64,000 bases of DNA from Bacteroidales bacterium (GTDB lineage Bacteria > Bacteroidota > Bacteroidia > Bacteroidales > P3), in assembly GCA_017479705.1 (NCBI GenBank), contig JAFVCA010000027.1, positions 1-64,000 of the forward strand. Reading direction: 5' to 3'. This document shows, one piece after another, positions 26,515 to 62,655 of the stretch (position 1 is the first letter of the stretch; every line of letters starts with the position of its first letter). The notes under the pieces are model-generated. The model was given only the letters and a program-made list of their open reading frames with translations. It ran no database searches and was not told the DNA's origin. The position numbers and the translations under genes were made by a program.

Positions 26515-26685
26515 ATGAAAAAAACGAACAAAAAAATGTACTCTCAGCCCCTCGTCGAGGTGCTGGATGCCCGTGTTGAAAAAGGCTTCGAAGGCAGCAC
26601 TACTCCCATCGACCCCGCAAACGGTGCTCAAATCATGAACAACCTCTCTGATGGCGGCGACATCAACGATGCCAACTGGGGTTGA
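26515..26685 (+). CDS. Short conserved peptide 1 (R-V-E-x-G-F family)
   Basis: 56 residues with no signal peptide or membrane segment. A lysine-rich start is followed by Q-P-L-V-E-V-L-D-A-R-V-E-K-G-F-E-G-S, then a variable tail rich in D, N and G ending in D-A-N-W-G. The same motif occurs in peptides 2 and 3 (58456 and 60583), each also just upstream of a fimbrillin-like lipoprotein gene. Codons of the conserved block differ from peptide 2 almost only at synonymous positions. The lipoprotein gene begins 51 bases downstream. The conserved-head, variable-tail design recalls precursor peptides, but no modifying enzyme is nearby. Function unknown. Confidence 0.7.
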   Translation: MKKTNKKMYSQPLVEVLDARVEKGFEGSTTPIDPANGAQIMNNLSDGGDINDANWG

Positions 26686-26736
26686 TCCCATCCAAATTAA
26701 ATGTAACTATTAACCACTAAAGAACCAAAAACAGCA

Positions 26737-28236
26737 ATGAAGAAAACATCCTTCTATCTCATCGCGCTCGCTTCGCTGAGCCTTATCACCGTCTCCTGCT
26801 CCAAGGAGAAAACCGGCAACGCACCCCAGTTCACCGCTGCCATGTCCACCGACGCAAAGGTAGCCTACGACGGCACCGACCTCTATTGGGAAGCTGGTGA
26901 CCAAGTAGCCATCTTCGGCACCGGCGACGCCCAAGGCACCGCCTACACCGTCACCCCCGCCGCTGCCAAGTCCCGCAACGCCACCCTCGACGTTACCAAC
27001 CCTGAATCCAACCTTGGCGATGCCCCCTACACCGCCATCTACCCCGCCGACCTTGCCACTGCCTCCAACGTCATGACCCTCCCCAAGGTGCAGACCTCCA
27101 ACGGCGGCGCGCTCGTCACGCTCCCCCTCTATGCCGAGTCCGCTACCACGGCCCTGCAGTTCTACAGCCCTTGCAGCGTGCTGAAACTGAAACTCACCAA
27201 GGCCAACACCTCCATCTCCAAAATCCAAATCATCGCCGACCAGTACCTCAATGGCGACTTCACCGTCTCCATGAATGAAGGGGCTGCCGCGATGGCCGTC
27301 AACACCGCAGCTTCCAACCACACCAAGGTGACCACCCTCGCCCTTGCCAACAATGTTGACATCACCAGCGAGCACATCTTCTACATCTACCTGCCCGCCA
27401 ACACCTACAACTACTTCCAAGTGAAGCTGTACGATGCCGACAGCAACATCTTCACCCGCACCACCACCTCCGGCATCACCTTCCAGGCCCACAAGTTCCA
27501 CACCCTGACCCTGGGTGAGAACACCATCAACTTCCACCCTGGCGACCTCACCGGCAAGTTCACCATCAATAGCAGCGGCCGCAAAGTGTCCTTCTCCAAA
27601 GGCAATGTTGTCAAGGACGGAAGCAACTACAAATTTGCCGACTATCAATACTATGCAACTACTGGTTTCGACGACCACCTGCCCTGGAACAGCAACGGCA
27701 GTGCCACTACGATGAGCACGGCCTATGCCAGCAACCTCACCAATGGCGGCACCGCCACATGGTTCGCACTCACTTATGCTCAATGGAATCATATGCTCAA
27801 CAGCCGCAATATGACCATGCGTTGGGCCGGTGTTTCCATCACTACGCACAACAACATTACCCGCCACGGCTTGCTGATTTTCCCGGACAATTTCAGCTGG
27901 CCTCTTGAGGATAACCGCAAACCCACAGCGAATTCCTTTGGTAACAGCGGCAACAGCTGGAACAGCAACGTCACCTATTCCTATGAAGAGTGGCGCACCC
28001 TCGAAGATGCAGGTTGCGTCTTCCTGCCCGCAGCCGGCCGCCGTCTTACACAAGAGTCTACCACAATTAACCGTTTAAACAATACCGGCTACTATTGGAC
28101 CCCTGATTATAACCACGGGAGGGGCATTTCCTTCTGCTTTGGCTTGTTAGAAGGCTCCACCAGCTATGGCAGAAAGTCCTTTGGCCTCTCAACCACTGAC
28201 CCGTTGACCATCCGCTTTGTCAAGGACGCCCAGTAA
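26737..28236 (+). CDS. Fimbrillin-like lipoprotein 1
   Basis: 499 residues. Lipoprotein signal with lipid cysteine at residue 21 (I-T-V-S-C-S-K). The mature N-terminal half opens like fimbrillin/Mfa-type proteins (V-A-Y-D-G-T-D-L-Y-W-E-A-G-D-Q-V-A-I-F). The C-terminal half begins G-K-F-T-I-N-S-S-G-R-K-V-S-F-S-K-G-N-V and contains E-D-A-G-C-V-F-L-P-A-A-G-R, a domain shared with lipoproteins 2 and 3. It is likely surface-exposed, adhesive or structural (inferred). This copy lacks the W-I-D-L-F-G-W block seen in the other two. A strong terminator follows. Confidence 0.75.
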   Translation: MKKTSFYLIALASLSLITVSCSKEKTGNAPQFTAAMSTDAKVAYDGTDLYWEAGDQVAIFGTGDAQGTAYTVTPAAAKSRNATLDVTNPESNLGDAPYTAIYPADLATASNVMTLPKVQTSNGGALVTLPLYAESATTALQFYSPCSVLKLKLTKANTSISKIQIIADQYLNGDFTVSMNEGAAAMAVNTAASNHTKVTTLALANNVDITSEHIFYIYLPANTYNYFQVKLYDADSNIFTRTTTSGITFQAHKFHTLTLGENTINFHPGDLTGKFTINSSGRKVSFSKGNVVKDGSNYKFADYQYYATTGFDDHLPWNSNGSATTMSTAYASNLTNGGTATWFALTYAQWNHMLNSRNMTMRWAGVSITTHNNITRHGLLIFPDNFSWPLEDNRKPTANSFGNSGNSWNSNVTYSYEEWRTLEDAGCVFLPAAGRRLTQESTTINRLNNTGYYWTPDYNHGRGISFCFGLLEGSTSYGRKSFGLSTTDPLTIRFVKDAQ

Positions 28237-28258
28237 TCTGCCGTTCTTATCCTATAAG

Positions 28259-28295
28259 CAAAAAAGCGTCCCACCGGGTGGGACGCTTTTTTTTG
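28259..28295 (+). terminator. Terminator after lipoprotein 1
   Basis: A strong GC-rich hairpin (AGCGTCCCA pairing with TGGGACGCT) is flanked by A on the left and followed by eight T residues. Confidence 0.9.
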
Positions 28296-28348
28296 TAGTT
28301 CCATGACGCTCAATGCCGTAAGCCCTTTGATCCCGTCCTCCGCCAGCG

Positions 28349-28483
28349 CAGCGTCGCTCTCCCTTCGCTCCTTGACAATCATGCTGCAACCATTTAGCCC
28401 TCATTTGTCCCCTTTTTTGAGGGCAAAATGAGGGCTAAGAACAAAACAGGAATTTCTTACAAAGCGAAGGGAGACCGACGCTG
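28349..28483. repeat. Nested palindrome, possible small mobile repeat
   Basis: 21-base arms (28349-28369 and 28463-28483) are inverted repeats with one mismatch. Inside is a second inverted repeat (28394-28407 and 28424-28438). The ~135-base structure could fold into one long hairpin. It may be a MITE-like element or a convergent terminator for the minus-strand gene. Confidence 0.5.
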
Positions 28484-28517
28484 ATCCCCCTTCACACTGA
28501 TACAGCAGCCTGTAGGC

Positions 28518-29345
28518 CTACCACACGTAGCCTAACGACAGCACCATCTGCACCTTGCTGCCGGGCAGGAAGTAGTTGGCCGTGCCGGTACCGTTGGCAA
28601 GGTTCAGGTTCACCACGCCGTTGGGGTACTCGCTCAGGTCGGCCTCGCCATCCTTGCCAAAGAGGGAGAGGATGCTGAGCGTGTAGAAGCAATATTGCAG
28701 CCGCGCCCCGCAGAAGAGCTGGTCGCTGAACCAGTACTTGGCCCCCACGTTGGCGTCGAAATGGAAGTTCATCAGCCCCATAAAAAGGTTCTCGAAGGCG
28801 TCGAAGCGGCTGGACTTGGCCGCAGCCAAGTCCATGGGTTTGCCGTCGTAGCGCACTTTGCTTTTCAGCTGCGGGGCCAAGGAGACGCCCAAGCCGGCAC
28901 TGAGGGAGAACTGGTCGTTGATGGAGTAGCTGAGGAAGGGGTTGAAATGGAGCAGTATGCGCTGGGCGGTGTACTTCACTTCGTGTTGTTCAGTCTTGCC
29001 GTCGCGCTCAACGCTCACCGTGCCGCTGAAAGGGTTGATGCTGTAGTAGACGGTGGCATAGTTGCCGAACTCGATGGTGCGGTTGTGGCGCGTCTCGTAG
29101 CCATAGAAAAGGCCGGCGCTGAAGCCCACGTTGTTGTCGATGGTGCCTTTGGTGCTGAGGCTCTGCTCCGTCCCGGTGGGGCCTGTGGCAGTGATGCCCA
29201 CGCCCATCTGCTGGGCGCAGTAGGAGGGTGTGAGGCTGAGGCCGAACTGGCGCTCGCCGTCGCCGGGCACATAGATGTAGCGGATTTGAGCATCCACCTG
29301 CTGCAAACACGCAGCCAAAAACAAAAAAAGTACGATTTTCTTCAT
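28518..29345 (-). CDS. Outer-membrane beta-barrel protein
   Basis: 275 residues with a signal peptide (K-K-I-V-L-F-L-F-L-A-A-C to V-D-A-Q), then repeated amphipathic strands (F-G-L-S-L-T-P-S-Y, F-S-A-G-L-F-Y-G-Y, F-S-L-S-A-G-L-G-V-S-L, K-Y-W-F-S-D-Q-L-F-C-G-A-R-L-Q-Y). It ends with M-V-L-S-L-G-Y-V-W, a typical terminal aromatic strand. It resembles 8-10-stranded PorT/OmpX-like barrels. No ligand can be inferred. AT-rich repeats occupy the spacer upstream. Confidence 0.75.
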   Translation of the reverse strand: MKKIVLFLFLAACLQQVDAQIRYIYVPGDGERQFGLSLTPSYCAQQMGVGITATGPTGTEQSLSTKGTIDNNVGFSAGLFYGYETRHNRTIEFGNYATVYYSINPFSGTVSVERDGKTEQHEVKYTAQRILLHFNPFLSYSINDQFSLSAGLGVSLAPQLKSKVRYDGKPMDLAAAKSSRFDAFENLFMGLMNFHFDANVGAKYWFSDQLFCGARLQYCFYTLSILSLFGKDGEADLSEYPNGVVNLNLANGTGTANYFLPGSKVQMVLSLGYVW

Positions 29346-29357
29346 AACTTTGAGAAG

Positions 29358-29421
29358 GTGTTAATGTGTTAATGTGTTAATTCGTGAGTCGTGTTTCAAT
29401 TTTCACTTTTCAATTTTCAAT
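29358..29421. repeat. AT-rich interspersed spacer repeat, copy 1
   Basis: Contains GTGTTAATGTGTTAATTCG then GTGAGTCGTGTTTCAATTTTC. It recurs almost identically at 29566-29632 and in variant form near 34150-34200 and, in opposite orientation, 42120-42192. Shorter TTTTCAATTTTC runs occur near 32350, 40950 and 63285. Confidence 0.7.
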
Positions 29422-29438
29422 TTATTATTATTCCTTGT

Positions 29439-29530
29439 AGCGTCTCTCCAAGACGCATACAGAAATGATTTTCAGTCACCCCACACTGCGTTCCTTGTGT
29501 GGGGTTAATAAGATTATGCCTCTTCGAGGC
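29439..29530 (-). repeat. Multi-hairpin interspersed element, copy A
   Basis: Three hairpins in order: GCGTCTC/AAGACGC, CCCCACAC/GTGTGGGG, GCCTC/GAGGC. Short form of the element, oriented opposite to copies B-D. It is embedded between two AT-rich repeat copies, and no terminal repeats were found. Confidence 0.65.
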
Positions 29531-29565
29531 ATCTTCGCGGTAATTGCGGATAATCATCTTTGTGA

Positions 29566-29632
29566 ATGTGTTAATGTGCTAATGTGTTAATTCGTGAGTC
29601 GTGTTTCAATTTTCAATTTTCAATTTTCACTT
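29566..29632. repeat. AT-rich interspersed spacer repeat, copy 2
   Basis: Nearly identical to 29358-29421; ends directly at the stop codon of the M48 gene. Confidence 0.7.
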
Positions 29633-32347
29633 TCAAGGGACTATTCCTATTCCTAACTTGAGGGTGAGGATGTTGGAGAGGACGGCATCGGGGTAGTGGA
29701 GGAATTGGCGGGTGTCGGTTTCGAAGCCGAAGGTCTTGGACAGACCGTAGGTGTAGGCATAGTCAATCTGGTAGTTGAGCAGGAGGTGGCGGTGGAAGAT
29801 ATAGTTGCGGCCTATGCCGAAATGGATGCCGTAGGTGTTGCCGCCATCGCCGCCACCGGGGAGGGAGAAATGCACCGCATGGGCCCCGATATCGAAATAG
29901 TAGCCTAACGGGGCAAAATGGCTGTTCTTGTAGATGCGCACCTCGAGGCCGAGGGTGAGCATATTGCGTGAGCTGACGTCTATGGAGTCGAAAATGCTGA
30001 TGCTGTTTCCCACCTGGCGGGGCACGAGGTAGGCGACTGTCACATCAGGATAGGCAGCCTGGTAGCGTGCCGTGGCGGCGATGGAGAGGCTGCGCTTCAG
30101 CGCAAATTCGGCCGAAGCCCAAGGGGTGAAGGCCACATAATGCCCCTGCTTGAAAGGCTGTTTCCCGCTCAGACCCATGTTGACACCCGCCGCCAAGGCA
30201 AAGCGGTGACCCATAAAGCCGACGGGGTCGCGCCGTGCGGGACGGAGCACACGGCTGTAGGTGTCATGGAGCATGGCATCGATGAGGGCCGGATGGTCGG
30301 CCATCTTGTAGGTGTAGGCCTGGCGGGTGAGCATGGTGCCCCGGCGGGCATCGGCCACAAGGGAGACCATGGTGGTGCGCTCCAAGCCCGTGAGGGCGGC
30401 GGCAATGACCATGGGGGCGAGGGGCACCAGGAGGGCGTAGGAGGGCGAGAGGGAGCCGCTCTGCCCCTCGTTGTTGAGGACGGCGGTCATGGTGAGGGTG
30501 GTGGCGCCGTAGCGGTCTAAGAGGCTGTCCATGGCGGGCTGCGTGAGGCGCAGGTGCGGGTAACGCCCCTTGGTGAGCCAGAACTCGTTCATCCACTCGC
30601 AGACGGTGAGGAAATCGTTGTACTGGGTGTCGGAAAGCATGGCGTGCATGCCTTGGTCGGAGAAGTCGACTGTGTGGCCGCCAAGGCGCGCCACGGTGGT
30701 GGCAATGCGGCGGCAGAGGTCCTCCTCGTGGGTGATGCTGCGGCTGGTGACGAGGTTGTCGCCGTGGTCCATAACCCAGTAGTTGGGGTTGAAGAGCAGC
30801 ATGGCGTGGGTGTCGGGTTGCAGGGCTTTCGGCTCCTCCGGCAGCGGGCCGTCGAGGTGGAGGTGCAGGGCGGCAAGGAGGGAGGTGTCGGCCATGAGGA
30901 GGTCGGTGAGGGCGTAGGCGGTGGGTGTTTGCCGGCTTTGGTTTTGGCGTTTCAGCCGGATGCGCTCATACTTGGTGAGGCCTTTGCGGGCGGCGGTATC
31001 GGGCTGTGGCGTGGAGAGGGCGGCAGCGTCGGGCGGCGTGGAGAGGAAGTCGGGCGAGGATTTGCCCAACGGATGACGGAGCAGCTGCATGAGGTGGTGG
31101 GCCATGGCGGGGAAACGGTCGTTGGCGGGGAAGCGGAGGTGGGCGCTCCAGGCGTTGTGGAGGGCGGCAAGGGTGAGCTGCTCGACGCCCGCCGTCTTGA
31201 GGGCGTAGCACACCTGCTGGCTCTCGCCTTGGGTCTTCAGATAGTTGTCGGCCATGATGTCGGCATTGTCGTTACAGCGGGCCACGGCGGCGCTGTAGAG
31301 GGCGCGGGCAAAGTAGAGGTTGAGGGTTTCGTCGTCGGGGTTGGTGCGGAGGAGGAGCCAGCTGTTGTAGAGGGCGCGGGCAAAATGGCCGTGGAGGAGG
31401 TCGTAGCGGATGCACTCCAGGCGCACGGTGTGGCGGAGGCTATAGAACTGCTCCGGAGTGGTGACGAGGAACTTCTGCCCACCGGTGTGGCCGGAGAGGG
31501 CCTGGGCGGTGTGGCGGCGACGGGTGAGGATGTTGGGGTGGGAGCTGTAGGTGTCGTCATCGTCGTCGCTGATGGTGATGGGGGCTACCGAGTCCAACCA
31601 GCAGCCGCGGAGGGCGTAGTAAGGCGTGTTGAAGAGGGTGGTGTCGAAGGGGATGTCGTCGAACGGAAGCTCGCCGTATTGGAGGATGTCGAAGACGCTT
31701 TCGGAGACCTCTTTCCAATAGGGGCTGGGGAGGTAGAAGAGTGCGATGCCGAGGGAGTCGGCCTCGGACTCCATCTCGCGGCTGCGGGCATGGTAGCGGA
31801 GGAGCCTTGCGGTCTGCTCGGCCTCGTCGTCGAGGTCGCGGCCTTCACGGCGTTCCCTTTTGCGGAGGAGGGTCTCCAGGCCGTGGGCACGGTAGTAGTG
31901 GATGATTTCGTGGGCAATGACGAAGGCCAGCTGCGCCTCGTTCTCTACCTGCGCCACAAGGCCGGCGTTGATGAAGATGATGCCCTGCGGCGTGGTGAAG
32001 GCGTTGGCCTGAGGGGCGGTGACGGTGTAGAAACGGAGCTCGGCCCGCAGGTCGGGATAGTCGCGGAGGAGGGTGTCGGCAATGCGTGCGGCAAGGGTGC
32101 TGACGGGGTCGCCATAGATGATGTGGCCGCTGGCCAGCATCTTGTTGATATGGTAGGAGGCTTCGAGGAGTTGCTGCCGGTTGCGCACACGCCGCCCGGC
32201 ATACTGCTCGGCACGCTGCTTGTCGGTTTGGTACAGCTGGTAGACGCTCTGTTTGAGGTCAGCGGGCACAGGACCACGGCTGCGAAGGGTCTGCGCGACA
32301 GAAAAGTTGAAGGCTACCAGTGCCAGAGTCAGAAGAAGGGGCTTCAT
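29633..32347 (-). CDS. Large secreted M48 metalloprotease with barrel-like C-terminus
   Basis: 904 residues. Signal peptide (M-K-P-L-L-L-T-L to S-V-A-Q); zinc protease motif H-E-I-I-H near residue 165 within F-V-I-A-H-E-I-I-H-Y-Y; third-ligand motif E-S-E-A-D-S-L-G about 50 residues later, so the M48 active site looks complete. A ~450-residue middle region has TPR-like helices and no recognised domain. The last ~200 residues alternate strands typical of an outer-membrane barrel (G-H-Y-V-A-F-T-P, L-T-L-G-L-E-V-R-I-Y, Y-G-I-H-F-G-I-G-R-N-Y-I-F) and end L-T-L-K-L-G-I-G-I-V-P. A BepA-like role in outer-membrane protein quality control with self-anchoring is a reasonable guess. Confidence 0.75.
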   Translation of the reverse strand: MKPLLLTLALVAFNFSVAQTLRSRGPVPADLKQSVYQLYQTDKQRAEQYAGRRVRNRQQLLEASYHINKMLASGHIIYGDPVSTLAARIADTLLRDYPDLRAELRFYTVTAPQANAFTTPQGIIFINAGLVAQVENEAQLAFVIAHEIIHYYRAHGLETLLRKRERREGRDLDDEAEQTARLLRYHARSREMESEADSLGIALFYLPSPYWKEVSESVFDILQYGELPFDDIPFDTTLFNTPYYALRGCWLDSVAPITISDDDDDTYSSHPNILTRRRHTAQALSGHTGGQKFLVTTPEQFYSLRHTVRLECIRYDLLHGHFARALYNSWLLLRTNPDDETLNLYFARALYSAAVARCNDNADIMADNYLKTQGESQQVCYALKTAGVEQLTLAALHNAWSAHLRFPANDRFPAMAHHLMQLLRHPLGKSSPDFLSTPPDAAALSTPQPDTAARKGLTKYERIRLKRQNQSRQTPTAYALTDLLMADTSLLAALHLHLDGPLPEEPKALQPDTHAMLLFNPNYWVMDHGDNLVTSRSITHEEDLCRRIATTVARLGGHTVDFSDQGMHAMLSDTQYNDFLTVCEWMNEFWLTKGRYPHLRLTQPAMDSLLDRYGATTLTMTAVLNNEGQSGSLSPSYALLVPLAPMVIAAALTGLERTTMVSLVADARRGTMLTRQAYTYKMADHPALIDAMLHDTYSRVLRPARRDPVGFMGHRFALAAGVNMGLSGKQPFKQGHYVAFTPWASAEFALKRSLSIAATARYQAAYPDVTVAYLVPRQVGNSISIFDSIDVSSRNMLTLGLEVRIYKNSHFAPLGYYFDIGAHAVHFSLPGGGDGGNTYGIHFGIGRNYIFHRHLLLNYQIDYAYTYGLSKTFGFETDTRQFLHYPDAVLSNILTLKLGIGIVP

Positions 32348-32416
32348 TTGAATTGAAAATTGAAAATTGAAATATTAAACAATACTCATTTAATTGAAGG
32401 GCTCTAATTTTGTATA

Positions 32417-32592
32417 TAACTGATTTTTGACAACCTCGAAGAGGTTGAATCCTATTAACCCCACACAAGGGATAGGGGTTGCGACCGAAAGGGAGCAACC
32501 CTCTATCCCGCAGTGTGGGGTCAGAAATGTCCCCCACATCTCAGCGTGTCGAAGACACGCGACATTGAGCCTATCTGCAAAAAATCAGTCAT
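32417..32592. repeat. Multi-hairpin element, copy B (long form, with terminal inverted repeats)
   Basis: Begins ACTGATTTTT and ends AAAAAATCAGT, perfect inverted ends. Inside: a CCTCGAAGAGG hairpin; a CCCCACAC/GTGTGGGG stem enclosing a second ~40-base stem (GGGATAG.../...CTATCCC); and a third hairpin near 32550. It lies between two minus-strand envelope genes. Confidence 0.75.
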
Positions 32593-32647
32593 ACTTTACA
32601 CTATAGCAAATTGAAATTGTTTGAGACGTGTTTTACTTTTCACTTGC

Positions 32648-34147
32648 TTAAAAGGGATTGACGCATGCAATCTTGACGAGCTGCTGTTTGTTGCCGGAGG
32701 AGAGGAGCACCACATAGTGGCCGGGCTCTTCGAGACGGTGGGTGCTGCCCGCTAAGGCACTGCGGGAGACTTCGAGGAAGCTGATGTCCTCCTTGCCGTC
32801 GGGGCCGAGAGTCCATACATTGAGCGTACCCTTGCTCTTGAAAGGCGTGAAAATCTTGTATGGCTTGGTAAGCGGGAACCCGATGTTGCTGATGTGGTCC
32901 ACCCACGCCAGCATGATGCCCGTGGGCGTGGCCATCCAGCGGTGGTCCAGATAGTCGCGCTGATCCCACGATGTGTTGCCATTGAAGCGGCGTACGGTGG
33001 TCCATTTGACCTTCCCGTTGCGGTCCACGCGCATCACCATCATGCCCATGCGCTGCTGGGCTACGGGGACATTGTTCAGCGTGGTCCTCCACTGCTGGTC
33101 CACCATCAGGTAGGCGCCGTCGGCATCGGCAATGCACTGCGAGATTTGGCCGAACTGCACCCAAAAGTGGCGTTGCTTGCTTGTCTCCTTCTCGTTGGTG
33201 AGGCGGTTGACCTCGTAGAGGGTGAAGGGGTGCTGCTCGACCGTGAGCTTCTGGGAGGCGATGTTGTAGCAGTAGATGTTGATGGCATCGACGTTGGAGC
33301 CGATGGGCATGACGGAGTGGTTCTCCTTGCGGACGGCAGCGGCAATGAGGATATTGCCATCGCCATAGCGCAGCAGTGCCTTGTCCATGATGAGGTCCGA
33401 TTCAGGCAGGGCAAACTCCACGTGGAGCTCCTGGGTGCCGTCCACAATGGTAAAACGGGCTATATTGTCATCAGTGACGGTGCGCCCCCTGCGCCGCCCG
33501 GTGGTGGTGAGCCGCCCCAGCGTGTAGAGCACCACATCGCCGGAGTCGGTGACATAGACATTGCTGAAAACGGCTTCGGAGCAGTTGTGGGTCCAGTAGG
33601 GTTTCAGCTCGTGGTCGTAGAGGCCCACCTTGACCTCGGTGCCTTGGACCCCCCTGTTCGCCACAGCGACACCCGCCAGCAGCTTGCCATCCGCCGAGAC
33701 ACCCATGCCGAAAGCAAACTCGTCGCCCTTCTGGCCGGGATAGTGGGCAAGCATTGCGGGGCCCCCAACAGGGTTGAGGGAGGTGCGGTCGCGCCGGTCG
33801 CGATAGACGGAGAGCGCCGTGTCGGAAATGGCGACCTGGAGCAGGTCGATGTGGGGGCCATTGATGTAGCCGCCGTAGCAGGAGACATCGCCCGTGTTTT
33901 GCAGCGGGACGGTGGCCTGCTCCTTCATCTCCCCGTCGTAGCAGACCAGCTCCATACGGTTTTTGAGGCGGCCACCATACTGCACCAGCACCGTGCCGAG
34001 GCTGTCGCTGCCGATGAACTGGGGGATGCCCTTTTTGGTGATGCCCTTGACGGTGGGCAATGGGTCGAAGGAGATGGACTGGGCCCGTCCGCCCTCAGCA
34101 AACAAGAGCCCGAGCACCAGCAATAAAAAGATTCTATAATAGTTCAT
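32648..34147 (-). CDS. Secreted propeller-like protein of unknown function
   Basis: 499 residues from ATG 34147; the 19 residues upstream lie in repeat sequence and precede the signal peptide (Y-Y-R-I-F-L-L-L-V-L-G to R-A-Q). The rest is beta-rich with repeated aromatic/glycine strand patterns (V-V-L-Y-T-L-G-R, G-A-Y-L-M-V-D, G-H-Y-V-V-L-L), suggesting a propeller. I recognise no family or catalytic motif. It sits four-base-coupled after the beta-barrel gene 34201-34893 in its long ORF form, but the ATG chosen leaves a 53-base spacer. Probably periplasmic or secreted. Confidence 0.6.
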   Translation of the reverse strand: MNYYRIFLLLVLGLLFAEGGRAQSISFDPLPTVKGITKKGIPQFIGSDSLGTVLVQYGGRLKNRMELVCYDGEMKEQATVPLQNTGDVSCYGGYINGPHIDLLQVAISDTALSVYRDRRDRTSLNPVGGPAMLAHYPGQKGDEFAFGMGVSADGKLLAGVAVANRGVQGTEVKVGLYDHELKPYWTHNCSEAVFSNVYVTDSGDVVLYTLGRLTTTGRRRGRTVTDDNIARFTIVDGTQELHVEFALPESDLIMDKALLRYGDGNILIAAAVRKENHSVMPIGSNVDAINIYCYNIASQKLTVEQHPFTLYEVNRLTNEKETSKQRHFWVQFGQISQCIADADGAYLMVDQQWRTTLNNVPVAQQRMGMMVMRVDRNGKVKWTTVRRFNGNTSWDQRDYLDHRWMATPTGIMLAWVDHISNIGFPLTKPYKIFTPFKSKGTLNVWTLGPDGKEDISFLEVSRSALAGSTHRLEEPGHYVVLLSSGNKQQLVKIACVNPF

Positions 34148-55437: not shown

Positions 55438-55493
55438 AATTGTTAGAATAATTTGTTTTGTAATGCAATTGTTATTGGCTCTATTTTCATATT

Positions 55494-55761: not shown

Positions 55762-55868
55762 CTCTCCACATTGCGGCGTTCGCATTCCTGCCAATGCGAT
55801 AGAACCCAATGTATTAACCCAAGTTTCACCCGGCTGGCAGGAGCCACAAAAAAACCAAACCCGCACAC

Positions 55869-57668
55869 ATGGATTATAAAAATGTGCAGCCGATAGCAGA
55901 TTTTGACTGGAGTGCTATCGATAAAAAAGAAGAAGTCAACAGCGAAAAGGTCAAACAAATGACCGAGCAGTACGAGCAGACCTTCAAATCATTCACCGAA
56001 CAAGAAGTTATCGAAGGCACCATCGTCAGCATCAGCGACCGCGAGGCCGTTGTCAACATCGGATTCAAGAGCGACGGTGTCATCCCCGCCTCCGAACTCC
56101 GCTACAACCCCGATTTCAAAGTGGGCGACAAGATTGAAGTCTACGTCGAGAGCCAGGAAGACTCCAACGGCCAGCTTCTCCTCTCCCACAAGAAAGCCCG
56201 CATCCTCAAGAGCTGGGAGCGCGTCAACCAGGCCTACGAGAATCAGGAAATCATCACCGGTTATGTCAAGAGCCGCACCAAGGGCGGTCTCATTGTCACC
56301 GTTTTCGACAACATCGAAGCCTTCCTCCCCGGTTCGCAAATCGATGTCAAACCCATCCGCGACTACGACGTCTTTGTCGACAAGAGCATGGAGTTCAAAG
56401 TCGTCAAAATCAATCACGAATACAAGAATGTGGTAGTCTCCCACAAAGCCCTCATCGAGGACGAAATCGAAGCCCAGAAGGCCGAAATCATCAGCCACCT
56501 CGAAAAAGGCCAGGTGCTCGAAGGCACCGTCAAAAACATCACCCCCTATGGTGTCTTCATCGACCTCGGTGGTGTCGACGGTCTCATCCACATCACCGAC
56601 CTCAGCTGGGGCCGTGTCTCCGATCCTAAGGACATCGTCGAACTCGACCAGAAAATCAACGTCGTCATCCTCGACTTCGATGAGGCCAAGCACCGCATCG
56701 CCCTCGGTCTCAAGCAGCTCACTCCTCACCCCTGGGATGCTCTCGATTCTAACCTCAAGGAAGGCGACCATGTCCACGGCAAGGTCGTTGTCATCGCCGA
56801 CTACGGTGCATTTGTCGAGGTGGTTCCCGGCGTCGAAGGTCTCATCCACGTCAGCGAGATGAGCTGGAGCCAGCACCTCCGCAGCGCTCAGGACTTCCTC
56901 AAAGTGGGACAAGAAGTCGAAGCCGTCGTCCTCACCCTCGACCGCGAACAGCGCAAGATGAGCCTCGGCCTCAAGCAGCTCATGCCCGACCCCTGGCTGA
57001 CCATCACCGAGAAATACCCCGTCGGCAGCAAGCACACCGCCGTTGTCCGCAACTTCACCAACTTCGGCATCTTTGTCGAACTTGAAGAAGGCGTTGACGG
57101 CCTCATCCACATCAGCGACCTCAGCTGGAGCAAGAAAATCAAGCACCCCGCCGAGTTCACCAAGATTGGCGACAGCATTGACGTCGTCGTCCTCGAAGTC
57201 GATGCCGAAAACCGCCGTCTCAGCCTCGGCCACAAGCAGCTCGAAGAGAATCCTTGGGACGTCTACGAGTCCCTCTTTGGCGTAGGCACCGTCCACCAAG
57301 GCACCATCTCCAACATCAACGACAAGGGCGCCACCGTCGCTCTCCCCTATGGCGTTGAAGGCTTCGCACCCATGCGTCACCTCGACAAGGAAGACAAGAC
57401 CAAAGCCCGCCAGGGTGAAACCCTCGACTTCAAGGTCATCGAATTCTCCAAAGAGAACAAGAAAATCATCGTCTCCCACACCCGCGTCTTCCAGGATGCC
57501 CTCGACAACGAGCGCCAGAAGAACGAGAACGAGGATGCAAAGAAAGAGCGCGCCACCAAGAAGACCGTCAAGAAAATCACCGAGTCTCTTGAAAAGACCA
57601 CCCTTGGCGACCTCAGCGTCCTTGCCAACCTGAAAGAGGAAATCGAGAAAGAAGAAAGAGGCGAATAA
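55869..57668 (+). CDS. rpsA: 30S ribosomal protein S1
   Basis: 599 residues with six S1 RNA-binding repeats, each with the G-x-V-x-x-I/V...G-A/I-F-V-E/D-L...G-L-I-H-I/V-S/T-D/E pattern (for example G-V-F-I-D-L-G-G-V-D-G-L-I-H-I-T-D and G-A-F-V-E-V-V-P-G-V-E-G-L-I-H-V-S). The C-terminus is lysine/glutamate-rich. It recruits mRNA to the 30S subunit, of special interest in Bacteroidota, where Shine-Dalgarno pairing is little used. Strong terminator downstream. Confidence 0.95.
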   Translation: MDYKNVQPIADFDWSAIDKKEEVNSEKVKQMTEQYEQTFKSFTEQEVIEGTIVSISDREAVVNIGFKSDGVIPASELRYNPDFKVGDKIEVYVESQEDSNGQLLLSHKKARILKSWERVNQAYENQEIITGYVKSRTKGGLIVTVFDNIEAFLPGSQIDVKPIRDYDVFVDKSMEFKVVKINHEYKNVVVSHKALIEDEIEAQKAEIISHLEKGQVLEGTVKNITPYGVFIDLGGVDGLIHITDLSWGRVSDPKDIVELDQKINVVILDFDEAKHRIALGLKQLTPHPWDALDSNLKEGDHVHGKVVVIADYGAFVEVVPGVEGLIHVSEMSWSQHLRSAQDFLKVGQEVEAVVLTLDREQRKMSLGLKQLMPDPWLTITEKYPVGSKHTAVVRNFTNFGIFVELEEGVDGLIHISDLSWSKKIKHPAEFTKIGDSIDVVVLEVDAENRRLSLGHKQLEENPWDVYESLFGVGTVHQGTISNINDKGATVALPYGVEGFAPMRHLDKEDKTKARQGETLDFKVIEFSKENKKIIVSHTRVFQDALDNERQKNENEDAKKERATKKTVKKITESLEKTTLGDLSVLANLKEEIEKEERGE

Positions 57669-57699
57669 CCCCCTCAATCTCGTATCACTCTATCAATAA

Positions 57700-57734
57700 A
57701 ACCGGGGCTCACACCGAGCCCCGGTTCTTTTTTT
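57700..57734 (+). terminator. Terminator after rpsA
   Basis: An 11-bp stem (57700-57710 with 57716-57726) with a five-base loop, followed by CTTTTTTT. Confidence 0.92.
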
Positions 57735-57767
57735 CACCACCCCACACCCTCAATCATTTTTTTTATG

Positions 57768-57775
57768 TATCTTTG
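57768..57775 (+). promoter_or_regulatory. -7 box for the XRE regulator
   Basis: TATCTTTG 33 bases upstream of the ATG at 57809. Confidence 0.6.
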
Positions 57776-57808
57776 CACCCAATTAGCAACAACAAACACC
57801 CCCTACCC

Positions 57809-58033
57809 ATGCCCAACAACATGCAGATACACATAGGCCTCATCATCCGCGACGAGCTGCGACGCCAAGGGCGCACCAACGCCTGGCTGGCCGAGCAAAT
57901 AGGCATCACCCCGCGCGCCCTGCAAAAAATCTTCAACAAACAATCCATCGACACCCAGCAACTCACCACCATCTGCACCGTCCTCCACACCGACCTCTTC
58001 CGCCTCTACTCCGACCTCCTCGCCAACCAATAA
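57809..58033 (+). CDS. Small XRE-type helix-turn-helix regulator
   Basis: 74 residues: I-I-R-D-E-L-R-R-Q-G-R-T-N-A-W-L-A-E-Q-I-G (given in part), I-T-P-R-A-L-Q-K-I-F-N-K-Q-S-I-D as the recognition region, and a helical tail. This is the Cro/CI-type DNA-binding fold without an effector domain. The upstream ATG at 57773 overlaps the -7 box and is rejected; ATG 57821 is an alternative start. It lies ahead of peptide-lipoprotein modules 2 and 3 and could regulate them, but that is only positional inference. Confidence 0.75.
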   Translation: MPNNMQIHIGLIIRDELRRQGRTNAWLAEQIGITPRALQKIFNKQSIDTQQLTTICTVLHTDLFRLYSDLLANQ

Positions 58034-58455
58034 TCCCCCCTCGCGCCGAAAGCCAAAAAAGCAAAAATTCCACCCTCAGAAAGCATTTTTGCAGCCCCAA
58101 AAACCATTTTTTTCCTCATTTTTCATTACCATTTTCACCCACACCGTCATGCTGCTGCCATCCCGTAGCACTCCATGAACCATGGCCCTTCCACGCCCTG
58201 TTGCCAACAATCATACCCAAACAATAGTCACCAACAGCACCTACTCTCAACTATTTACAATTACAACACATGCCCTTTTTGGACACCCCACCATCGTTCA
58301 AAAGAGTGTATTTTTGCAGCCGAAAATAAAGCGGAATGCCGCCTTTTTGCACTTTCCAGACACCTCCACCACCACCATTCCTCACCCATCCTTTCCCCGG
58401 CAACACAAAGCAGTTTTAATTCAAATAATAATCATTAAAAAATCGAAAGGAAAAA
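58034..58455 (+). promoter_or_regulatory. Long spacer with -7 box (58309-58316) for module 2
   Basis: 422 bases with no supported gene. TATTTTTG at 58309-58316 would start a ~135-base leader that is C-rich at first and A-rich just before the peptide ATG, with GAAAGGAAAAA as a weak ribosome-binding sequence. Confidence 0.5.
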
Positions 58456-58635
58456 ATGAAAGAAAACAAAATCTATTGCGCCCCCATTATCGAGGTGCTT
58501 GATGCAAGAGTTGAAAAAGGTTTTGCCGGTTCCCCTGTGATAGAGCCACAACCCGACCCCGTAACCCCTCCCGATGGCGGTTTCGACGCTGGTGGTCAAA
58601 CAGGTTGGTCTGATGGCGGCTACCTGCTCACCTAA
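58456..58635 (+). CDS. Short conserved peptide 2 (R-V-E-x-G-F family)
   Basis: 59 residues; conserved head A-P-I-I-E-V-L-D-A-R-V-E-K-G-F-A-G-S and a proline-, glycine- and aspartate-rich tail (P-P-D-G-G-F-D-A-G-G, W-S-D-G-G). No signal peptide. Of the eight codons that differ from peptide 1 in the block E-V-L-D-A-R-V-E-K-G-F-x-G-S, seven are synonymous, so the protein is under selection. Lipoprotein 2 starts 70 bases downstream. Confidence 0.72.
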   Translation: MKENKIYCAPIIEVLDARVEKGFAGSPVIEPQPDPVTPPDGGFDAGGQTGWSDGGYLLT

Positions 58636-58705
58636 TTGCTCCATGCAACCTCGCGTTTATCAACAAACAAACATTAATTAATCGATTAAAAATCAAAACC
58701 ACACA

Positions 58706-60319
58706 ATGAGAAAAATATTAAGCAAGACATCCATTGTCCTCTTTGCCGCTGCCATGTTCATGGTTGGCTGCAAAAACGAAACCGAACAGATTTTCCAACT
58801 CCAGATGCCCGAGTACTCCGGTGAAGACAAAACCACCTTTGGCTCCGGCAACACCACCCTGTGGACCGCTGGCGACCCCGTGCTCATCAACAGCACCTCC
58901 GGCAACGTCCAGAGCAGCAGCAGCATCTCCTTCAGCACCCCCATCGACCCCATCAACAAAATGTTCTACTCCCTCTATGCTGGCCGCGCCACCAGTCCTT
59001 CATTCGATGCAAACACTTGCAGCTACACCTACACCATGCCCTCCTCCTTCACCTACACTGCCAACCAGCTGCAGGCTCCCATGGTGGGTCAGTGCGCCTA
59101 CATCGGCAAGGATGCCAGACACACCATCATCTACTCCAACATCTGCACCCTGCTGAAACTCGAATTCGTCGTCATCCCCGACCAGGTGACCATCACCTCC
59201 GAGAACACCGCCCTCTCCGGCAACTTCACCGCCACCTATGCTGACGGCAATTGGACGGTTACCGCTCCCGCCGCCACCAGCTCCAACAAGACTCTCACCA
59301 TTACAAACTCCAACTACAACTCCGTCATGTACGTCCCCCTGCCCGCTGGCAACCACAAGCTGACCATCTCCGGCACCTGCAATGTCAGTGGCACCAATGT
59401 GGCCGCTCCTTTCTATAAGGAAATGACCAGTAGCGTCAATATGCTGAAAGGTTACCTCTACACCGTCAAGTGCGCCCACGCCTTCTCCATTTCCGCCAAC
59501 AGGAAAGTATTTTTCTCTCCCGGCAACCTCCAGTATTACAACACCAGCACCTATCCTTTAAGCATTACTGATTTAGATGCTCGTTGGGATGGTGATGGAA
59601 TCAATTCGAATAGCTGTTTCAGATTTGCTCAACATCAATGGGACAACAACATCACCAGCAACAATATCAAAGAGGAACGAGTACTTCTTGTCACCTATCA
59701 CGATGTCCGAGGCAATGGGGCTTGGATTGACCTCTTTGGCTGGGCCACTGGCAGAAATCCCGGCCGCAGCAGAACCACCAGCCTTGCCTATAGCGGTAGC
59801 GGTGTTGACTACGCCGACTGGGGCAACAACCTCACCCTTCCTATTATCAATGCCAAGACCAACGAAAGCTGGCGCACATGGCACACCGAAGGCTCATGGT
59901 ATACCTTAGGCAGATCCGAATGGACATACCTTATCGGACACAGCACTAAGAAATTGGCTACCGTAAATGGTACCGCCGGTCTTATCATTGCCCCCGACGA
60001 TTTCAGCGGCTCCCTCCAAACTTCATACTCTGGCACAGCCTGGACCAACCTCGAAAAAAGAGGTGTAATCTTCCTGCCCGGCTCTGGTTACAGACACTAC
60101 GGCGAAGGTATTCGTCGCTCATGGGGCTACAGCAGCGACTGGAATGGCTACTGGACAATGACCGACTCCGAGGAATGGGGCGACTACTATGCCTACTTCA
60201 TGAAGTTCAGTCCCTCTTATGGCCCCAACGTTGAACGTCCCAGCGTATCACATTCTGGAACAGCTAATTCCAACAAACCTACCGGCCTGTGCGTCCGTTT
60301 AGTTCAAAATGCCAACTAA
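58706..60319 (+). CDS. Fimbrillin-like lipoprotein 2
   Basis: 537 residues with lipid cysteine at 22 (F-M-V-G-C-K-N). N-terminal fimbrillin-like part (G-N-T-T-L-W-T-A-G-D-P-V-L-I); C-terminal domain from about 268 beginning S-A-N-R-K-V-F-F-S-P-G-N-L-Q-Y with R-F-A-Q-H-Q-W-D, W-I-D-L-F-G-W-A-T-G, D-Y-A-D-W-G-N-N and R-G-V-I-F-L-P-G-S-G. This domain is shared with lipoprotein 3 and partly with 1. It ends with the strand G-L-C-V-R-L-V-Q. Surface-exposed structural or ligand-binding role inferred. Confidence 0.75.
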   Translation: MRKILSKTSIVLFAAAMFMVGCKNETEQIFQLQMPEYSGEDKTTFGSGNTTLWTAGDPVLINSTSGNVQSSSSISFSTPIDPINKMFYSLYAGRATSPSFDANTCSYTYTMPSSFTYTANQLQAPMVGQCAYIGKDARHTIIYSNICTLLKLEFVVIPDQVTITSENTALSGNFTATYADGNWTVTAPAATSSNKTLTITNSNYNSVMYVPLPAGNHKLTISGTCNVSGTNVAAPFYKEMTSSVNMLKGYLYTVKCAHAFSISANRKVFFSPGNLQYYNTSTYPLSITDLDARWDGDGINSNSCFRFAQHQWDNNITSNNIKEERVLLVTYHDVRGNGAWIDLFGWATGRNPGRSRTTSLAYSGSGVDYADWGNNLTLPIINAKTNESWRTWHTEGSWYTLGRSEWTYLIGHSTKKLATVNGTAGLIIAPDDFSGSLQTSYSGTAWTNLEKRGVIFLPGSGYRHYGEGIRRSWGYSSDWNGYWTMTDSEEWGDYYAYFMKFSPSYGPNVERPSVSHSGTANSNKPTGLCVRLVQNAN

Positions 60320-60338
60320 ACAATTCAGCTGACATACT

Positions 60339-60384
60339 AACTTATTTGCTCACCCTCTTTGCGGGGTGGGCAAATAAGTTTTCT
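60339..60384 (+). terminator. Terminator after lipoprotein 2
   Basis: A 17-base arm starting AACTTATTTGC pairs with one ending GCAAATAAGTT, with one mismatch, followed by TTCTC. So module 3 needs its own promoter or readthrough. Confidence 0.75.
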
Positions 60385-60424
60385 CTGTCAACCGGCAACA
60401 ACAATCATCAACAAACAATAGGTC

Positions 60425-60539
60425 ACCTCTAAAAATTATTGTTGAACACGAATTACACTAATCTAACGAATTATTATTCGAGCTATTTGTGTTATTCGTG
60501 TTCGTCAGAAATGAATAACTAATAATTAGTGTTAGAGGT
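60425..60539. repeat. 115-bp palindromic element, MITE-like
   Basis: Ends ACCTCTAA and TTAGAGGT are perfect inverted repeats, continued by AATTATT/AATAATT and by the inner pair GAACACGAAT/ATTCGTGTTC. Unlike the B/C hairpin family. It lies between the terminator and peptide 3. Confidence 0.6.
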
Positions 60540-60582
60540 TGCCTGAATACAATAAACAATCCAAAACAATAACAACACAACA

Positions 60583-60774
60583 ATGGAAAAAGAGACATAC
60601 ACCACACCCCGCGTCAAAGTGGTACATTTCCGCGTGGAGCACGGATTCGAAGCCTCCCCAAATTTCTCCGCTGGCGACAGCAGTACCATCGAGACCACCA
60701 GCGACCTGTTCGGCACCGAAGCCATTTCACAAAACGGCGATGTTATCGGCCGCGATGCTCTTACCCGTTACTAA
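60583..60774 (+). CDS. Short conserved peptide 3 (R-V-E-x-G-F family)
   Basis: 63 residues; head T-T-P-R-V-K-V-V-H-F-R-V-E-H-G-F-E-A-S aligned with peptides 1 and 2, then a serine/threonine-rich tail ending R-D-A-L-T-R-Y. The most divergent copy. No signal peptide. It is only 12 bases from lipoprotein 3, so the two are surely cotranscribed. No clear promoter box in the 40 bases before it. Confidence 0.72.
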   Translation: MEKETYTTPRVKVVHFRVEHGFEASPNFSAGDSSTIETTSDLFGTEAISQNGDVIGRDALTRY

Positions 60775-60786
60775 AAACCCATAGCC

Positions 60787-62655
60787 ATGAACAGACAACA
60801 CACACTCCTTACCCTTGGCGCAGCCTTCGTGATGCTCGCCTTCAGCTCGTGCCAGAAAGACCGTATGGGCAGCACCTTCACCGCCACCCTTGAGCGCTAT
60901 GCCGACATCAACACCAAGACCCACCTCGACGGCAACCGCCTCAAGTGGGACGCCTCCGACCGCATCATCGTCCTGAACGACAACATGAACTTCGGCATCT
61001 ACGCCGCCACCGCCGGCGGCGCAGTCACCGCCGACTTCACCTACATAGACAACGCCTCCAACACCGGCTGGGACCTCGACGTGGGCAACCCCGAAGCCTC
61101 CTGCTACGGCGACGGCTACCCCCAAGCCAATTTCTTCCAAGCCATCTATCCCGCCGAAATCGTCGACATCCAAGCCGGCGGCGTCACCCTCCCTGCCACC
61201 TACAGCAGCCCCGACGGCAACCTGCACGGCTTCCCCATGTACGCCTACTCCACCACCAACAAGCTCAACTTCAGGAATGCCTTCGGCCTTGTCAAGCTCA
61301 CCATGTATAAAGCCAACACCACCATCACCTCCATCTCCGTCACCGCCGACCGTCCCATCAACGGCCTCTTCACCATCGACAACACTACCGAGTGGACCCT
61401 CGGCCAGGTTGCCGTCCCCCCGTTAGCCTACAGCAGCAACGGCAACAACACCACCACCCTCACCCTCGGCACCAACGGCGCTGGCATCTCCATCGACGAC
61501 GTCAACGCGAAAGACTTCTACATCTGCCTGCCTCCGGGAGAATACAGCAGCCTCACCTTCACCTTCACCAACAGCGAAGGCGGCTACTGCACCCTCAGCA
61601 AGAACTCCCCCACCACCATTGCCCGCAGCCAGTACACAGCCTTCGACCTCCGCGACAACGACCCCACCGACGAACTGTTAGTCTTCCGCGACATCAGCGG
61701 CCTCTTCTCCATCGGCTCCAACCAGTACGTCAAGTTCTCCCCCGGCAACCTGCAATACAGCCCCTCCACCAACGTCTGGCGCTTCGCCCCCACGCAGCTC
61801 AGTTATGTAGGTGAAAGCCAAGGAGACTATTTCCGCGGGGATGTATCGTCCATAGAGTGGATAGACCTCTTTGGTTGGGGAACAGGCAATAACCCCACCC
61901 TCTGCTCAACCGACGATGCCGACTACTCCACTTTCAACGACTGGGGTAACAACACCATTTCAAACGGCGGCGACTACACCTGGCGCACCCTTACCTTAGA
62001 CGAATGGGCATACCTCGCCGCAGGACGTCCCGACGCATTCCAAAAGGTAGGCGGAGCCAACGTTGCGGGCGTAAACGGCTTCATCTTCCTGCCCGACGTA
62101 TGGCACCAGCCAGCAGGGACCACCTTTGTTCCCGGTTTCGGCTGGAACGACTTCTACAGCCGCAACACCTACACTGCCGCCCAGGCACAATTAATGGAAG
62201 CTGCTGGAGCCATCTTCCTGCCCGCAGCAGGAGCAATGGGAACCGTGACCGTTTCTGGCACCAACGTACAATGGATGTATACTCACAGTGCACAATGGCC
62301 ACAATTAGGAACCCGCTGGGAAGATGCAGAAGGTGTTCTGGCACCTTTAGTGTGGCTGATTTTACAGCTTGAGGAAAAGGCCAACTTTTATTGGTCTGCC
62401 ACATCCTCTGGCGATGAATACCTTTCATTCGAGAATACAAATAACACAACAGGTGCCTACGGCGGTGCATTCTCACAGACTGGCCTGTATGATGACATCT
62501 TCAGTCACCCCGATGCCGAAGGGGTAATACAAGATGGGCAAGATATGGGCTTTTATATTGCCGATGGATTATATGCCATCATGCTGCCCATGGCACCCCA
62601 GGCTAAGGCTGCTGTGCGTTTGGTGCGCGACGTCGTTCCCGGCGGCTCCAAGTAA
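60787..62655 (+). CDS. Fimbrillin-like lipoprotein 3
   Basis: 622 residues; lipid cysteine at 22 (F-S-S-C-Q-K). N-terminal fimbrillin-like segment T-H-L-D-G-N-R-L-K-W-D-A-S-D-R-I. C-terminal domain from about 305: S-I-G-S-N-Q-Y-V-K-F-S-P-G-N-L-Q-Y, W-R-F-A-P-T-Q, W-I-D-L-F-G-W-G-T-G, D-Y-S-T-F-N-D-W-G-N-N, G-A-I-F-L-P-A-A-G, closing A-A-V-R-L-V-R-D. Longest of the three. The first half is very C-rich at third positions, while the last third has more A/T, suggesting a mosaic origin. Confidence 0.75.
   Translation: MNRQHTLLTLGAAFVMLAFSSCQKDRMGSTFTATLERYADINTKTHLDGNRLKWDASDRIIVLNDNMNFGIYAATAGGAVTADFTYIDNASNTGWDLDVGNPEASCYGDGYPQANFFQAIYPAEIVDIQAGGVTLPATYSSPDGNLHGFPMYAYSTTNKLNFRNAFGLVKLTMYKANTTITSISVTADRPINGLFTIDNTTEWTLGQVAVPPLAYSSNGNNTTTLTLGTNGAGISIDDVNAKDFYICLPPGEYSSLTFTFTNSEGGYCTLSKNSPTTIARSQYTAFDLRDNDPTDELLVFRDISGLFSIGSNQYVKFSPGNLQYSPSTNVWRFAPTQLSYVGESQGDYFRGDVSSIEWIDLFGWGTGNNPTLCSTDDADYSTFNDWGNNTISNGGDYTWRTLTLDEWAYLAAGRPDAFQKVGGANVAGVNGFIFLPDVWHQPAGTTFVPGFGWNDFYSRNTYTAAQAQLMEAAGAIFLPAAGAMGTVTVSGTNVQWMYTHSAQWPQLGTRWEDAEGVLAPLVWLILQLEEKANFYWSATSSGDEYLSFENTNNTTGAYGGAFSQTGLYDDIFSHPDAEGVIQDGQDMGFYIADGLYAIMLPMAPQAKAAVRLVRDVVPGGSK

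Follow-up and report, generated by a model that had tools for sequence, protein, structure and literature searches.

The Linear Polyphosphorylated Peptides (LPPs; Popov et al. 2026) are the closest described family to the peptides studied here. Their description dates from May 2026, and the earlier statement that no function is described for peptides of this kind is outdated to that extent. The main text of the paper calls LPPs "restricted to the Bacillota", contains no word starting with "bacteroid", and gives neither an identified final product nor a known biological role (PMC13381572). An LPP precursor has 35-200 aa, with an N-terminal YxxPxV...xxS motif, in which the leader begins with YxxPxV and a conserved Ser ends the motif, and a variable C-terminus. 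One to three precursors occur per cluster. The clusters encode a discrete RRE with an Asn/Asp pair, an HprK-like kinase, an archaeal-type SpI-like leader peptidase with Ser, His and Asp, an NTP transferase and an MsbA-like ABC exporter (PMC13381572). Further characteristics of LPPs are multiple phosphorylation of Ser3 that depends on the kinase, an LPP clade in the RRE tree, and the absence of B2 and of an Asn-synthetase-like macrolactam cyclase, both of which define lasso peptides. The RRE, HPrK and nucleotidyltransferase are also genes of paeninodin-type lasso peptides, which have a [Y/W]xxP leader (PMC13381572); the residue is Trp there and Tyr in the peptides below.

The window, a stretch of 64,000 nucleotides from the 75% complete genome of an uncultured Bacteroidales bacterium, encodes three short peptides. 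From their sequences and those of relatives, we consider it likely that they serve as the precursors in an LPP-like RiPP system. The features that appear to be new are the Bacteroidales host, as against the Bacillota hosts of LPPs, the dispersed precursors mostly paired with lipoproteins, and the modifying genes located elsewhere, usually in trans in genus g1.

Conserved heads and variable tails of the peptides

Peptide 1 is a predicted precursor of 56 aa (26515..26685, + strand), defined by its ORF and by alignments. Its leader-like block from Y to S occupies 26539-26598, the variable tail follows, and the conserved Ser (Ser28), the predicted phosphosite, is encoded by codon 26596-26598; the Tyr and Pro of the head are Tyr9 and Pro12. 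Peptide 2 (58456..58635, + strand, 59 aa, head at 58474-58533) and peptide 3 (60583..60774, + strand, 63 aa, head at 60598-60657) are also predicted precursors. Columns invariant across the three include the head residues Y, P, V, R, V, E, G, F and S, and the head consensus is Y-x-x-P-x-[VIL]-x-V-x-x-x-x-[VI]-E-x-G-F-x-x-S. In head profile A5 (51 rows), Y and E were invariant and P, G and S reached at least 90%, although the Tyr proves nothing there because the heads were chosen by a pattern demanding it. YxxP was also present in 36/36 loci gathered with a pattern holding no Tyr. The peptides agree with the LPP precursor definition except for the internal HQxIxFET part, which their heads lack, and their Tyr-to-Ser stretch is longer by one residue than in LPPs (PMC13381572).

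The tail varies by class, and the Ser before it is nearly invariant. Its usual ending is aromatic, which differs from LPPs: F, W or Y was found among the last four residues in 95 of the 103 tails of all fetched peptides, against a mean of 34 and a maximum of 49 in 1000 shuffles, a contrast inflated by related copies. No hydrophobic signal peptide was seen in peptides 1-3 when the sequences were read by eye, in agreement with the preliminary description. That description had also proposed a precursor peptide with a fixed head and a variable tail. This reading is still the best one, in the form that the head reads as an RRE-bound RiPP leader and the tail as the core. Searches of Pfam and NCBIfam with peptides 1-3 gave no match at E<=1. 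With 31 family members, Pfam gave weak matches only, and NF033524 gave weak matches to 3/31 (best E 0.075) and again to 1/10 peptides; the one match shown scored 12.8 bits against a cut-off of 27.

A profile of peptides 1-3 matched 8 additional genes of this genome (E 1e-11 to 7e-4); peptide 1 belongs to the query alignment, so its own match is by construction. A 12th candidate copy was found at C45:15782 (E 0.0036), and a match at E 0.73 was discarded. The recurrence of the peptides in their own genome is more than chance. With at least 11 copies in this genome and up to 22, dispersed, in relatives, the numbers differ from those per LPP cluster, and the module is not a triplication as was first described. 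Nor do the tails diverge completely, since a near-identical tail is common to 5/8 extra copies and the aromatic ending is widespread.

The heads were also compared at codon level. Between peptides 1 and 2, 13 codons of the 20-codon block Y..S differ and 8 of these differences are synonymous (pN/pS 0.31), where seven of eight had been reported. The pN/pS was 0.56 for peptides 1 and 3, 0.44 for peptides 2 and 3, and 0.52 overall for 49 heads. These values below 1, the outcome of the dN/dS check proposed earlier, support purifying selection on the peptide protein, milder than first claimed.

Lipoproteins downstream of the peptides

Each of the three ORFs precedes a lipobox protein on the same strand, as originally noted. 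Lipoprotein 1 (26737..28236, + strand, 499 aa, lipobox Cys21) begins 51 bases downstream of peptide 1 and is fimbrillin-like or FISUMP-like by weak similarity only. Lipoprotein 2 (58706..60319, + strand, 537 aa) follows peptide 2 after 70 bases, with a weak DUF4493 match (E 0.0032, below cut-off). Lipoprotein 3 (60787..62655, + strand, 622 aa) follows peptide 3 after 12 bases and matched no Pfam family at E<=1. None of the three had a Pfam match above cut-off, PF13149 (Mfa_like_1) included. Mfa_like_1 was found in 1/28 aligned lipoproteins (E 8.5e-5), and an hhalign comparison of these 28 with an unambiguous Mfa_like_1 plus Fib_succ_major protein gave a probability of 41% (E 0.00027). On these results, the name "fimbrillin-like" is weak for the three lipoproteins of the window. 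No solved relative of the lipoproteins was found by PDB sequence search at E<=0.1. In the fimbrillin literature, we found nothing on a small upstream protein in Bacteroidales, nor on a RiPP precursor peptide.

The homologue search proposed earlier showed that homologues exist and that most are linked to a lipoprotein, but not always. Of the 103 relatives that could be tested, 31 had no downstream lipoprotein when scored by script, and 29 after correction by eye of L097 and L102, which had been scored "none" although a lipoprotein follows in both; 4/107 peptide genes had no downstream sequence and stand outside this count. In a set of 36 loci, the pairing was present in 32/34 testable ones (L073 and L087 lacked testable sequence). 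Loci L022, L119 and L120 were left out of the analyses. At L069 and L088, the peptide is a single gene followed by a terminator-like hairpin, as read by eye. The gap between peptide and lipoprotein had a median of 36 bases, was <=150 in 67/72 cases and ranged from -38 to 586. The tail class tracks the lipoprotein (Mantel r 0.77, 0/2000 permutations as high), and tails co-vary with lipoproteins more than heads do (0.77 vs 0.53). Co-duplication of cassettes would also yield such co-variation.

Candidate modifying genes and their co-occurrence with the peptides

The genome of the window has one PqqD-type RRE over cut-off (PF05402, 46 bits against 23.4), on a contig other than that of the window (C9, 9430-9702). 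It adjoins an HPrK-like kinase gene (9715-10590) and a signal-peptidase-like gene (10673-11422), the latter fused to VanZ, a fusion that differs from LPPs. The discrete RRE, its Asn/Asp pair and the HprK-like kinase in the RRE locus, which characterize LPPs, were all found here. Head profile A5, searched against 177,635 distinct PDB sequences, had a single match at E<=10, the TfuA lasso leader (6jx3_A, E 0.5, KKxYxAPxL). Taken alone, this match is weak. The best PDB match of RRE profile A7, built from 23 of the 39 RREs listed, was TfuB1 (6jx3_B, E 4.3e-6), the partner chain of that leader. The fusilassin/fuscanodin complex itself belongs to an actinobacterial lasso system (PMC13381572).

Position 35 of the RRE is Asn in 37/37 and position 73 is Asp in 36/37 distinct RREs (23/23 rows of A7). 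They align with Gly and Gln (G42/Q79) of the paeninodin-type PbaB1 (9x90_B), positions which are treated as equivalent to LppB N33 and D70 and shown to matter for Tyr-type leaders; the Asn/Asp pair is frequent in PQQ and lasso RREs too (PMC13381572). The pair speaks against the paeninodin type and not for LPP alone. Of the 30 PqqD loci that scored best in the family, 27 have a P-loop HPrK-like gene next to PqqD. The kinase conserves SGTGKSTH, NDD and PWSGK; its best HprK model was TIGR04352 (E 1e-3, far below cut-off), and its profile gave weak generic P-loop matches only in the PDB. Peptidase profile A9, built from 12 of 15 peptidases, best matched SEC11C (E 8e-8) and SEC11A (E 1e-7). Ser, His and Asp are invariant in its 12 rows, but the spacing of His and Asp, mostly 15, departs from the 25 of LppS.

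An NTP_transf_5 nucleotidyltransferase of 339 aa (19476..20495, + strand; PF14907, E 2.4e-35) is encoded in the window, with SUF genes and others between it and peptide 1. It shares its Pfam family with RRE-cluster nucleotidyltransferases and is 27-29% identical to those in the clusters L293, L295 and L297; it is possibly part of the system. The genome has two PF14907 genes, both outside the RRE locus. An ABC transporter is encoded immediately before peptide 1 (24457..26289, + strand). It is 28-33% identical to exporters from six RRE clusters, whereas these exporters are 30-61% identical to one another. It is unlikely to be the peptide exporter and is probably a housekeeping transporter. In genome G167, of another family, a peptide, an HPrK-like kinase, an SpI-like peptidase, PqqD, NTP_transf_5 and an ABC exporter form one tight same-strand run. 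In G186, PqqD, a nucleotidyltransferase and an ABC gene are preceded, at a distance of 523 bases, by an Mfa_like_1 plus Fib_succ_major protein. The RRE loci of 10 other-family peptide genomes include an exporter in 8 and a nucleotidyltransferase in 4.

Peptide and PqqD were counted per genome. Among 79 genomes of genus g1, 68 had both, 7 neither, 2 the peptide only and 2 PqqD only. A broader profile recovered peptides in 9/11 PqqD genomes formerly without one and in 0/7 double negatives. The Fisher p of 4e-7 for this genus treats relatives as independent and was not relied on. In the rpoB tree, which covered 24 of the 30 genomes requested, the double negatives are one clade of four and one deep branch; the independent pairs are too few to support a test. 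Across the order, PqqD was found in 12/13 peptide genomes and 241/393 overall (p 0.015). PqqD is so common in the order that association with it alone says little. The threshold of E<=0.01 per genome implies about 4 chance peptide calls in 393 genomes, and the weakest calls were G097 (0.0035), G260 (0.0019) and G532 (0.0066). Peptide without PqqD occurred in G139 and G141 (77% and 79% complete) and G313, and PqqD without peptide in G115 and G131. In the family outside g1, PqqD was present in 2/4 peptide genomes and peptides were missing in 5/7 PqqD genomes. Peptides and adaptor mostly occur together, in few independent events.

Possible roles of the peptides and their partners

The short median gap ahead of a larger gene and the tracking of the lipoprotein by tail class could be expected of a translational leader, an upstream ORF controlling the lipoprotein in cis. 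We regard such a leader as improbable, since many relatives have no downstream lipoprotein, L069 and L088 stand alone with their hairpins, the gap varies widely and one peptide heads the kinase-RRE operon of G167. The pairing in 32/34 testable loci of the one set and the closer co-variation of tails than of heads, which co-duplication would also give, would fit an unmodified cytosolic chaperone or partner of the lipoprotein, with retention before export. This is unlikely, though somewhat less so than the cis leader: the peptide has stand-alone homologues, its head resembles an RRE-bound leader, and the conserved part is the head and not the tail. The 29 to 31 relatives without a lipoprotein and the two hairpin loci likewise count against a cytosolic partnership, as once suggested, being the primary role.

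Ordinary lasso-peptide precursors are the least probable reading, slightly behind the cis leader. The YxxP leader and the shared enzyme set speak for them, as do the small [W/Y]xxP ORFs that were noticed by eye near PqqD at 7 further Bacteroidales loci and in some cases contain Thr-(x)-Gly-Gly. Lasso B2 (PF13471), however, was not found in the 75% complete genome of the window, no ORF of the fetched clusters was recognised as B2- or cyclase-like on inspection by eye, and the penultimate Thr described as conserved in lasso leaders (PMC10368454) is not evident here. It is about as unlikely as the chaperone that the peptides have no relation to the RRE/HPrK pair and are found with it through shared ancestry alone. 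The few independent loss events in the rpoB tree are in line with this, and no peptide was first recognised beside the pair in 30 family PqqD loci, the one in L136 being found later by profile. Against it stand the G167 operon, the meeting of head and RRE profiles in one PDB complex, and RRE residues that would suit a leader of the Tyr type.

In an LPP-like system of this kind, the RRE would recognise Tyr and Pro in binding the head and would present the peptide to the kinase, which would phosphorylate the conserved Ser just past the leader. The signal-peptidase-like enzyme may then remove the leader near G-F, and the tail would be exported. Our guess is that each tail works with the adjacently encoded lipoprotein or modifies its display. 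Should a tail act with its own lipoprotein, one trans modifying machine might therefore serve many precursor-lipoprotein cassettes. A more tentative proposal, which we hold to be possible but doubtful, is a decentralised Bacteroidales polyphosphopeptide system. One trans RRE/HPrK/peptidase machine would phosphorylate and mature many precursors, and each exported phosphopeptide tail would pair with its own lipoprotein at the cell surface, in ligand-receptor, assembly or masking roles.

If true, the LPP family would widen to another phylum, with a concrete lipoprotein partner to test, and the decentralised arrangement would give LPPs their first functional partner. Gene-cluster mining would miss systems in which precursor and enzymes lie apart. 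The data suggest that a small ORF ahead of a Bacteroidales lipoprotein gene can encode the precursor of a modified peptide.

Peptide copies and their lipoprotein neighbours

The preliminary description gave three short ORFs (peptides 1, 2 and 3, window 26515-26685, 58456-58635 and 60583-60774, forward strand) closely preceding lipoprotein genes. The ORFs and spacings were confirmed; the term "triplicated module" was too narrow. The window's genome (2.1 Mb in 53 contigs, 75% complete) contains eight further genes that match a profile of the three peptides (E 1e-11 to 7e-4); an additional match at E 0.73 was dropped. A same-strand lipoprotein gene follows seven of the eight and the contig ends behind the other, so that, with the window's three, 10/10 testable copies were paired. 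A possible twelfth peptide lies at C45:15782-15850 (E 0.0036). The tandem peptide 2-lipoprotein-peptide 3-lipoprotein (window 58456-62655) seems to be repeated in two fetched loci, where a peptide-3-like gene (L058, 5945-6121; L068, 3529-3726) stands just 3' of the lipoprotein of a peptide-2-like gene.

One degenerate pattern, scanned over 84,980 named genomes, yielded 36 loci. One came from a MAG titled Candidatus Colimorpha merdihippi, all others from MAGs titled "Bacteroidales bacterium"; the sources, where a title gave one, were rumen, reticulum, omasum or horse faeces. The next gene encoded a lipobox protein in 32 of the 34 testable loci (31 by script, L079 by reading); L069 and L088 had none next, and a putative terminator hairpin was read by eye behind each. 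Of the family's 149 genomes, 65 matched the peptide profile at E<=0.001 and 74 matched a head-only profile at E<=0.01, with a maximum of 22 matches in one genome.

It had been proposed that homologues elsewhere would be linked to such lipoproteins. Homologues exist, and a lipoprotein is not always next: the script found one downstream of 72 of the 103 testable distinct peptide genes in all fetched loci (74 with two added by eye). Peptides 1 and 2 belong to a sub-type marked by [AT]R[VI]E in the head; there a lipoprotein was next in 45/48 genes, and in the TVVxF sub-type in 7/20. These fractions come from the best-scoring loci and are hence not unbiased. Because tails (the variable remainder, the predicted core) track the lipoproteins more closely than heads do (Mantel r 0.77 for 27 pairs, against 0.53 for heads), the cassette seems to have been inherited and duplicated as a unit. 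Lipoproteins of 263-267 aa lacking the C-terminal half stand behind one peptide class (L063, L064, L065, L070, L071, L072 and L077). Among 28 aligned lipoproteins, three matched DUF285 and two matched LRR_8 / LRR_5 (BspA-type).

The head as a predicted leader

The head is a 20-residue block with the motif Y-x-x-P-x-[VIL]-x-V; its first residue is the Tyr of this motif and its last a Ser that hardly varies. YxxP is a lasso motif bound by RREs (PqqD-type adaptors), according to the accessible text of PMC12710340 and PMC13381572, and it was present in 36/36 loci found by the pattern, which did not specify Tyr. In the PDB, the head profile matched a single sequence at E<=10: TfuA, the lasso leader in entry 6jx3. 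This match (E 0.5) is not significant by itself; the top match of the RRE profile was TfuB1 of 6jx3 (E 4.3e-6). Since both profiles converge on the same complex, we consider the result telling for a leader-like head. An aromatic residue occurs within the last four positions of 95/103 tails (shuffles: mean 34, maximum 49), possibly as an export or enzyme-docking signal.

Candidate partner genes and co-occurrence with PqqD

A single PqqD-type RRE (C9:9430-9702) exceeded the cut-off in the window's genome; it adjoins an HPrK-like kinase (C9:9715-10590) and a VanZ fusion with a signal-peptidase-like domain (C9:10673-11422). A P-loop, HPrK-like gene adjoins PqqD in 27/30 best-scoring PqqD loci of the family. 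ORFs with the pattern SM.P...H[RK]...GD occurred in 32/46 loci examined, a count in which some entries are the same gene and some loci are cut at the edge. In G167, a genome of another family, a tight run begins with the peptide gene and continues with kinase, peptidase, RRE, NTP_transf_5 and ABC exporter. The ten other-family peptide genomes with a fetched RRE locus had kinase and peptidase in eight, exporter in eight and nucleotidyltransferase in four; none of these was seen in the RRE locus of G385. On the G186 contig, which is only 5.3 kb, a Mfa_like_1 and Fib_succ_major protein lies 523 bases upstream of RRE, nucleotidyltransferase and exporter. The peptide of the G186 genome lies upstream of another lipobox protein. 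In G146 a peptide is divergent, about 430 bases from an RRE and an SpI-like gene.

In g1, a genus of the window organism's family (79 genomes), 68 genomes had both peptide and PqqD, seven neither, two PqqD only and two peptide only (77% and 79% complete). A broader profile was a fair test, peptides being expected where PqqD is present but not elsewhere; they were found in 9/11 PqqD genomes that had had no peptide match before (one, G097, at E 0.0035 only) versus 0/7 genomes lacking both. The double negatives included in an rpoB tree of 24 genomes formed a four-member clade and a single deep branch; therefore, few independent events lie behind the co-occurrence. In the family outside g1, 2/4 peptide genomes also had PqqD (p 0.047). 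At the order level, PqqD was found in 12/13 peptide genomes (exception G313) versus 241/393 overall (p 0.015); two of the 13 (G260, G532) were above E 0.001, and about four chance matches are expected at the threshold.

Small [W/Y]xxP ORFs, picked by eye in 7/30 PqqD loci of other Bacteroidales (L215, L218, L224, L225, L229, L234, L237), are possibly uncharacterised lasso-type precursors; two of these loci, L215 and L229, also had a flagged P-loop (HPrK-like) gene. A HepT-like / NTase_sub_bind gene (window 10517-10960, PF08780, E 6e-33) is presumably half of an MNT-HepT type pair.

Relation to Linear Polyphosphorylated Peptides

In Linear Polyphosphorylated Peptides (LPPs), as the accessible text of Popov et al. 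(PMC13381572) describes them, the RRE LppB binds a YxxP leader, the kinase LppK adds several phosphates to core Ser3, and the SpI-like LppS removes the leader with the RRE assisting; LppN and LppD accompany these three. The same text has Asn33 and Asp70 of LppB holding the Pro kink and Tyr of the leader, with Gly at the first position in paeninodin RREs (Gly42 and Gln79 in PbaB1). Mapped via alignment with PbaB1, 37/37 distinct Bacteroidales RREs have Asn and 36/37 have Asp. This pair and YxxP are compatible with a Tyr-type leader; many PQQ and lasso RREs share the pair, according to the same source. The conserved Ser of the peptides would be the positional counterpart of Ser3. Cleavage would fall after G-F if counted from this Ser, or alternatively, by small-x-small, one residue later in heads that have Ala at this place.

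The Bacteroidales peptides would be a distinct branch relative to LPPs, because the head lacks the HQxIxFET part of the published motif and its Tyr-Ser distance is one residue longer. Capsule loci are a frequent setting of Bacillota LPPs; likewise, a second NTP_transf_5 gene of the window's genome (C49:16983-17696; L310 7053-7961) lies in a locus that looks polysaccharide-biosynthetic by eye.

We regard the peptides as an LPP-like precursor family, neither ordinary nor categorically new. From gene order and co-inheritance, our guess is that the tail acts together with the lipoprotein. LPPs are confined to the Bacillota according to the accessible text of PMC13381572; what is new is LPP-like precursors in another phylum, and a precursor layout that is dispersed and mostly lipoprotein-paired.
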